Position numbers and translations under genes: made by a program
Source of the DNA: Ignavibacteria bacterium
Lineage (GTDB): Bacteria; Bacteroidota; Ignavibacteria; UBA10030; SZUA-254
Length of the DNA: 64,000 nt
Assembly: GCA_016178595.1 (NCBI GenBank)
Contig: JACOSY010000035.1
Coordinates: 1-64,000, forward strand
Direction of reading: 5' to 3'
Notes under the pieces: generated by a model
Told to the model about the DNA's origin: nothing
Databases searched by the model: none
Seen by the model: the letters and a program-made list of their open reading frames with translations, nothing else
Shown: positions 53,248 to 59,422 of the stretch, piece by piece
Numbering within the stretch: the stretch's first letter is position 1
Layout of the letters: each line of letters starts with the position of its first letter

Positions 53248-53312
53248 AATAGATTGACGAAGATTATGATTGTGCGTATCTCTGCTTAAACTACTATGGA
53301 AGGAATAAGAAA

Positions 53313-53388
53313 GGGCAGCAAAGGGAAGCTGCCCTGTGGTGGATTAGTGGTGGAGGTACTGAATACCTACCTGTCCATTGTACTAATC
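53313..53388 (+). ncRNA. possible structured RNA before the SulP gene
   Basis: Two helices follow each other. The first is gggcagc (53313-53319) with gctgccc (53328-53334). The second has gattagt (53342-53348) pairing with actaatc (53382-53388) around an inner hairpin aggta (53354-53358) / tacct (53364-53368). No open frame covers the stretch and no T-run follows either helix. It may be an RNA gene or the 3' part of the upstream transcript. Confidence 0.35.
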
Positions 53389-53474
53389 GGCACGCAGTGA
53401 ATCAAGGTCTCTCTCCATGAATTACCCGATTAATTTTTTGCTTTTTGCTATGCAATACTCGCCGAAGATAAAAT

Positions 53475-53503
53475 TGTTTTTTCGTATGCTTTCGTGTATC
53501 TTT
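53475..53503 (+). promoter_or_regulatory. promoter of the SulP transporter gene
   Basis: TTGTTT (53475-53480) and TATCTT (53498-53503) are separated by 17 bases. The start of transcription would fall near 53510, which makes the in-frame GTG at 53494 unlikely as the start and supports a TTG at 53548. Confidence 0.45.
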
Positions 53504-59335: not shown

Positions 59336-59422
59336 GGAGAGGTGGCCGAGTGGTTGAAGGCGCTAGTCTCGAAAACTAGTATACGCGTAAGTGTATCGAG
59401 GGTTCGACTCCCTCCCTCTCCG
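59336..59422 (+). tRNA. tRNA-Ser (anticodon CGA)
   Basis: The 87-base gene has the acceptor stem ggagagg/cctctcc and the D-arm gccgagtggttgaaggc. The anticodon stem ctagt/actag has loop ctcgaaa (anticodon cga), a long variable arm follows as expected for serine, and the T-arm is gaggg-ttcgact-ccctc. The discriminator base is G and no CCA is encoded. Confidence 0.96.

Follow-up and report, generated by a model that had tools for sequence, protein, structure and literature searches.

Does the spacer between a 241-amino-acid (aa) open reading frame (ORF) and a SulP transporter gene, both on the plus strand, hold a structured RNA, and if so, on which strand and of what kind? The question was raised by an earlier note on this DNA, which had described positions 53313-53388 as a candidate structured RNA. 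The window, that is, the whole stretch of 64,000 nucleotides analyzed here, is contig C34 of the host's 3.1-Mb genome, and the spacer occupies 53248-53493 (246 nt) of it. The SulP transporter has Pfam matches to PF00916 and STAS, and its nearest named relatives are in Ignavibacteriae/Ignavibacteria MAGs. The 241-aa ORF to the left gave no match in a Pfam search and is lipoprotein-like by eye, and a DEAD-box helicase gene lies upstream. Elsewhere in the window, a tRNA-Ser (CGA) at 59336-59422 (plus strand) was the sole Rfam match at the gathering score.

The composition and coding potential of the stretch agreed with the earlier description. The GC content is 51% versus 36% in the remaining spacer, no ORF of at least 60 aa overlaps the stretch, and the nearest one begins at 53417. 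The stretch is also not the SulP leader, as the predicted SulP promoter (TTGTTT-N17-TATCTT, 53474-53502, plus strand) is separate from the hairpin element and sits downstream of the stretch. The class had gone unrecognized, and no Rfam family matches it: a scan of the stretch against Rfam 15 gave no match at the gathering score, and a relaxed threshold returned only sobemo_FSE (12.9 bits versus 55 required; E of 6.3). A scan of eight related loci gave no Rfam match at an E of ≤0.5.

The three perfect helices reported for the stretch (7, 7, and 5 bp, two of them nested) are all present. Helix 1 (GGGCAGC/GCTGCCC) pairs 53313-53319 with 53328-53334 and reaches 8 bp counting a flanking A-T pair, helix 2 (GATTAGT/ACTAATC) pairs 53342-53348 with 53382-53388, and helix 3 (AGGTA/TACCT) pairs 53354-53358 with 53364-53368 inside helix 2. 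On the plus strand, 53305-53395 folded with a z score of -4.68, with 0/200 shuffles as good, for a stretch that had itself been selected. The first hairpin alone gave a z score of -3.67 and the nested half alone gave -2.46 (1/200 shuffles each), and the entire 246-nt spacer reached only -1.16, with 26/200 shuffles equally good. The three helices do not form one plus-strand RNA. The hairpin of helix 1 is best read on the minus strand, where its T-run lies; on the plus strand, no T-run follows the stem, and the hairpin is not a terminator that way. Helix 2 was judged to be incidental and overlaps both the motif described below and, through 53382-53388, the minus-strand -10 element. The predicted minus-strand RNA (53370-53302) gave a z score of -6.33 with 0/200 shuffles as good, for a stretch that had likewise been picked, post hoc, and its fold consists of a 5' hairpin, an unpaired part containing CUAAUCCACC, and a terminator.

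Read on the minus strand, the stretch is probably the gene of an intergenic RNA of about 68 nt (53303..53370), which would be transcribed from its own promoter and end at an intrinsic terminator; the ends were placed from the promoter and terminator marks, the fold, and matches to two models (R1 and R2, below). The -35 element TTGATT (53400..53405) and the -10 element TACAAT (53377..53382) are 17 bp apart, and this sigma-70-like match (53405-53377) is weak alone, as three promoter-like sites were found in the region against 2.0 expected. They are followed by the 5' hairpin GGTATTCAGTACC (53355..53367), which is the opposite strand of helix 3, the core motif CTAATCCACC (53338..53347), which is predicted to be unpaired, the terminator stem-loop AGGGCAGC-TTCCCTTT-GCTGCCCT (53312..53335), which corresponds to helix 1, and the T-rich tail TTCTTATTC (53303..53311). 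The whole of CCACUAAUCCACC is predicted to be unpaired between the 5' hairpin and the terminator. A terminator scan identified an intrinsic terminator on this strand, with an 8-bp stem and the T-rich tail, and no frame opens with ATG and continues within the predicted RNA. Its own promoter, a terminator, and the lack of an ORF mark it, as a prediction from sequence, as a small RNA.

We examined the SulP locus in relatives. SulP was found at an E of ≤1e-100 in 24 of 100 genomes, nine of them in the family, the host's own included. When about 700 nt upstream of each of the eight other family SulP loci was inspected by eye, the block was seen only in G002 (locus L039, JANYJZ010000033.1, apparently an identical record), where it is kept upstream of SulP with 77% identity over 56 bases, the sole syntenic match in a local BLAST search on the loci of relatives. 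The minus strand of G002 reads TTGACA-N17-TATCAT, 24 nt, CTAATCCAC, a 13- to 14-bp hairpin, and GTTTTTCCC, so that promoter, motif, and terminator are kept at the same SulP position. The block is absent from G009, whose SulP is the most similar (81%) and is likewise preceded by a related ORF, and from six further family SulP loci. A DNA search of the spacer against 100 relatives returned no recognizable homologue among the matches listed, and exact 14- and 16-base patterns matched G000 and G002 at the SulP locus, with the other matches examined being without the layout.

These comparisons decide which parts of the original reading stand. What stands, as the best reading, is a noncoding RNA distinct from the SulP leader; its strand and structure as first described do not, as the elements kept in G002 read on the minus strand. 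The expectation that relatives preserve the helices held for the hairpin of helix 1, the terminator, which is kept in G002; helices 2 and 3 are absent there, and a 5' hairpin like that of the window RNA is not predicted in the fold of the G002 counterpart. The compensatory changes proposed as a check were few in the terminator and not significant, with 52/500 shuffles reaching the score. The predicted feature that recurs is a single-stranded sequence adjoining a terminator, not the three-helix fold. The observation is confirmed as a real feature, and its original interpretation is partly supported: the strand opposite to the one first read carries a predicted gene for a small RNA, with a leader motif common to a family-wide secreted-protein set.

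A second site for such units is the dnaG locus. A promoter, 21 to 23 nt, CTAATCCACC, and a terminator occur after dnaG in G005, G001, G010, G008, and G013 (five genomes of four genera); dnaG was identified by Pfam for the G001 copy and by likeness of reading for the other copies. The unit lies between dnaG and a gene for a 166-aa protein without a Pfam match. Of 40 genomes searched for this gene, nine have it, and in all nine it has its own promoter, TTGCA(A/T)-N17-TATATT. Because of this promoter, the unit is not simply the leader of the 166-aa gene, and leader attenuation of that gene after dnaG was rejected; the N17 spacing in all nine also identifies 17 bp as a spacing used in the lineage. 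The unit is present in five of the nine genomes having the 166-aa gene and absent in G012, G007, and G000, and for G004 only about 230 nt upstream was covered. In the host's own C12, upstream of the 166-aa gene (L325), the place of the CTAATCCAC unit is taken by GTGGATGGTTATTTGGTGGAG, followed by a strong terminator.

Promoter-bearing motif units were seen in seven genomes, one in each, at either dnaG or SulP, in a nonexhaustive search. All seven aligned candidate RNAs have CTAATCCAC; the motif had helped to find five of them (window, G002, G005, G001, and G010), and the G008 and G013 units were found via the 166-aa gene, not via the motif. In the folds of all seven, CUAAUCCAC is unpaired at least in its core, with the exception of a 2-bp closing contact in G005. 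It is rather likely that the window RNA belongs to a lineage-specific set of RNAs exposing CUAAUCCAC ahead of a terminator.

The motif itself was counted in the 15 family genomes, where CNCTAATCCACC had 55 exact matches compared with 9 for the reversed pattern, and in 45 other genomes, where the counts were 23 and 8. All 55 family places were inspected, and many fall in coding sequence. The sortable intergenic sites, together with a few variants, form three kinds, and the remaining intergenic sites fit none. In kind B, CTAATCCAC is followed by a terminator (window, G010, G005, G001, the host's own C52, and G008 C7), with CTAATCCACA in its place in G002 and G009. In kind A, the complement GGTGGATTAG is followed by a terminator. 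Some kind-A sites stand directly after ORFs with type IX sorting-tail-like ends, at distances of 7 nt (L242 and L287), 15 nt (L245), and 47 nt (L285); a test for PF18962 found this domain only in two other proteins, which adjoin leaders (L234 and L392). In kind C, CTAATCCAC lies within 5' leaders. A TTG-N17-TAnnnT promoter was present 15 to 35 nt before the motif at 7 of 10 kind-B sites, versus 0.09 expected from shuffles; the criteria were chosen post hoc, and a single orthologous locus accounts for five of these seven. The corresponding figure for kind A was 3/16 (0.18 expected), with L252 (nearly a copy of L254, with the motif within an ORF) and L181 (a variant) left out of this complementary set.

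The motif was also counted in leaders. The pattern CTAATCCAC-N2-32-GGAG-N4-12-ATG had 35 matches at 32 distinct places in all 15 family genomes, compared with one for the reversed pattern, and 16 compared with 3 in the 45 other genomes. The motif sits 10 to 48 nt before the start codon. The protein N termini were inspected by eye at 23 of the 32 family places, and all 23 were hydrophobic and signal-peptide-like; at two further places (G013 C47 and G004 C44), the bases after ATG are not signal-peptide-like. Outside the family, some leader matches are clearly of other kinds, two of them preceding what we take to be ribosomal protein L20. In a Pfam search of six family leader proteins, SdrD_B passed the cutoff in one protein and narrowly missed it in a second; a third had Laminin_G_3 and Por_Secre_tail, two had subthreshold matches only, and the last had none. 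For the operon that follows one of the leaders, the labels DUF4402, chaperone, and usher were considered and dropped, as four of its proteins gave no Pfam match. Nine aligned leaders, of SdrD_B-like proteins and look-alikes, have CACTAATCCACA and a GGAGG site and little else in common; they had been collected by CTAATCCACA, so the evidence is recurrence before similar proteins, not base invariance. In some leaders the motif is closely preceded by another unit resembling it, for example, CCACTAAAT. In several of the nine (L360, L365, L368, L370, L389, L390, L394, L395, and L396), the Shine-Dalgarno site stands between AATCC and GGATT, which by eye could pair over it. The enrichment of the motif in leaders is the stronger result, and the function of the window RNA is what we infer.

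Taken overall, the best explanation, to which we give an even chance, is a lineage-specific small RNA that mimics the leaders and titrates their binder. In many secreted- and surface-protein genes, the CUAAUCCAC 9-mer lies a short way ahead of the Shine-Dalgarno site, with the sense that it has in the RNA. Because the window RNA matches the leaders in sequence and is not their complement, we tentatively read it as a leader mimic or decoy that may titrate a CUAAUCCAC-binding factor and thereby alter surface-protein translation; both the binding and the direction of the effect are inferred. The window RNA would compete with the leaders for a common partner, which could be a protein or, as we prefer, complementary GGUGGAUUAG RNAs, and titration of this partner would alter the translation of surface proteins.

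Candidate RNAs with the complement GGUGGAUUAG and a terminator do occur, one of them in the host's own genome. The candidate in G013 consists of TTGCGA-N17-TACATT, 20 nt, GGTGGATTAGAG, and a terminator; a 19-nt complementarity links it to a leader in the same genome, that of a secreted-type protein of 184 aa. In the host's own candidate, on C32, a predicted 5' hairpin precedes GGTGGATTAGTG and a terminator follows, with 12 nt complementary to the window RNA, and no TTG-type promoter was found for it. Kind-B RNAs pair weakly with leaders, as expected from their equal sense, with about -9 to -12 kcal/mol compared with -25 to -38 kcal/mol for the complementary pairs (long-duplex energies, without a shuffled control). 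A rather doubtful extension is a two-sided circuit controlling surface-protein translation in this Ignavibacteria family. Here, GGUGGAUUAG RNAs would pair with the CUAAUCCAC of leaders that belong to secreted and type IX-sorted proteins, while another small RNA, that of the window or its dnaG-locus counterpart, would imitate the leader and soak up the GGUGGAUUAG RNAs.

CsrB titrates a protein, CsrA, and CUAAUCCAC could similarly be an RNA-binding-protein site in 5' leaders, with the window RNA as a protein-titrating decoy. The shared sense of the motif in RNA and leaders and the second unit in some leaders are consistent with this reading. However, it does not alone predict units of GGUGGAUUAG plus a terminator, and a lead to PUR/DUF3276 as the protein yielded little, so we regard it as unlikely. 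Autoregulation of PUR/DUF3276 was rejected, as GGTGGATTAGTGG occurred within 300 nt after the stop codon in only 3/30 loci, two of them in one genus (the 30 loci were drawn from at least 36 matches, and two pairs among them had an identical 3' stretch). In three cases (L249, near 2952; L190, near 1970; L191, near 1914), a long hairpin 55 to 65 nt past the DUF3276 stop codon has GGTGGATTAGTGG in its loop region, and cmscan of L249, L252, L190, and L191 gave no Rfam match at an E of ≤0.5. Upstream of DUF3276 (PF11680), a structured-looking leader, GGACGRC..CTCYC..GCCGTCC, was observed in 7 of 12 stretches examined (L289, L290, L291, L292, L293, L295, and L297, from G001, G009, G013, G008, G010, G004, and G002, respectively).

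The element could also be only a minus-strand intrinsic terminator that halts antisense transcription into the lipoprotein gene, with no separate role for the motif. The terminator is the best supported element, and of the two models built solely from the five dnaG-locus RNAs (R1, which includes the promoter, and R2), R2 finds ordinary terminators widely. Each model had the element as its sole match in the window, on the right strand and in the right place (R2, 24.5 bits and E of 0.0004; R1, 23.3 bits and E of 0.016). In the host's own genome, R2 found the window element at an E of 0.019 and a terminator without the motif at a better E of 0.006, and across 100 genomes it matched mainly ordinary terminators, scoring 22 to 29 bits. 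Among its matches other than the training RNAs, G008 C7, of kind B, ranked first (33.7 bits). None of 14 inspected loci matched by R2 contained CTAATCCAC, and none of the 14 was accepted as a new member, including L338 (G068) and L354 (G006), where TAATCCACC and CAATCCACC adjoin a terminator. The model appears to back the anatomy and does not prove kinship. Against a terminator without further role, both G002 and the dnaG locus have motif and promoter together with the terminator, and the family genomes show enrichment of the motif, which makes this explanation improbable.

A site acting at the DNA level, bound by a transcription factor or a nucleoid protein and only by chance near terminators and leaders, would fit the occurrence of both motif orientations beside terminators but is very improbable given the biased leader orientation, 11 CTAATCCAC versus 3 GTGGATTAG in the family loci examined, with two of the three being one locus in two species. 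An origin as a 23S rRNA fragment, considered since TACTAAT on the plus strand resembles the 3' end of 23S rRNA, was rejected when comparison with the host's own 23S gave no match beyond chance. Neither GTGGATTAG nor CTAATCCAC, sought as a sign of rRNA pairing, occurs in the 20 kb of sequence that carry the 16S and 23S genes; the 16S rRNA holds the universal GGATTAG, complementary to seven of the nine motif bases.

The preferred reading, a small RNA that mimics leaders and titrates their binder, can be compared with known systems. CsrB/RsmZ-type RNAs are protein-titrating small RNAs and, like the window RNA, repeat a motif of mRNA leaders. In contrast to them, the window RNA has one copy of the motif, no GGA loops, and no known protein. 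In proposed action, the nearest are bacterial RNA sponges, for example, the Caulobacter sponge of PMC12559287, in which a short RNA sequesters a regulatory RNA; for the window RNA, this role is a prediction. Nearest in kind, likened by description and not by sequence, is GibS of Bacteroides thetaiotaomicron (Ryan et al. 2020, PMC7366714). That study describes GibS as an intergenic small RNA with a terminator and a conserved single-stranded seed that was experimentally shown to pair with translation initiation regions. Both are described as Bacteroidetes intergenic small RNAs with a terminator and a single-stranded seed, but GibS is the complement of its targets, whereas the window RNA is predicted only and has the same sense as the leaders.

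A literature search found nothing on small or noncoding RNA in Ignavibacteria or Ignavibacterium, nor on the motif, among the matches listed, and among the listed papers containing the letters CTAATCCACC, no title concerned bacterial RNA regulation. If the proposed reading is true, the system would sit in a group for which the literature search found no described system of such kind, and a 9-nt leader motif would mark out a testable group of surface-protein genes, accompanied by a decoy RNA and by complementary RNAs.
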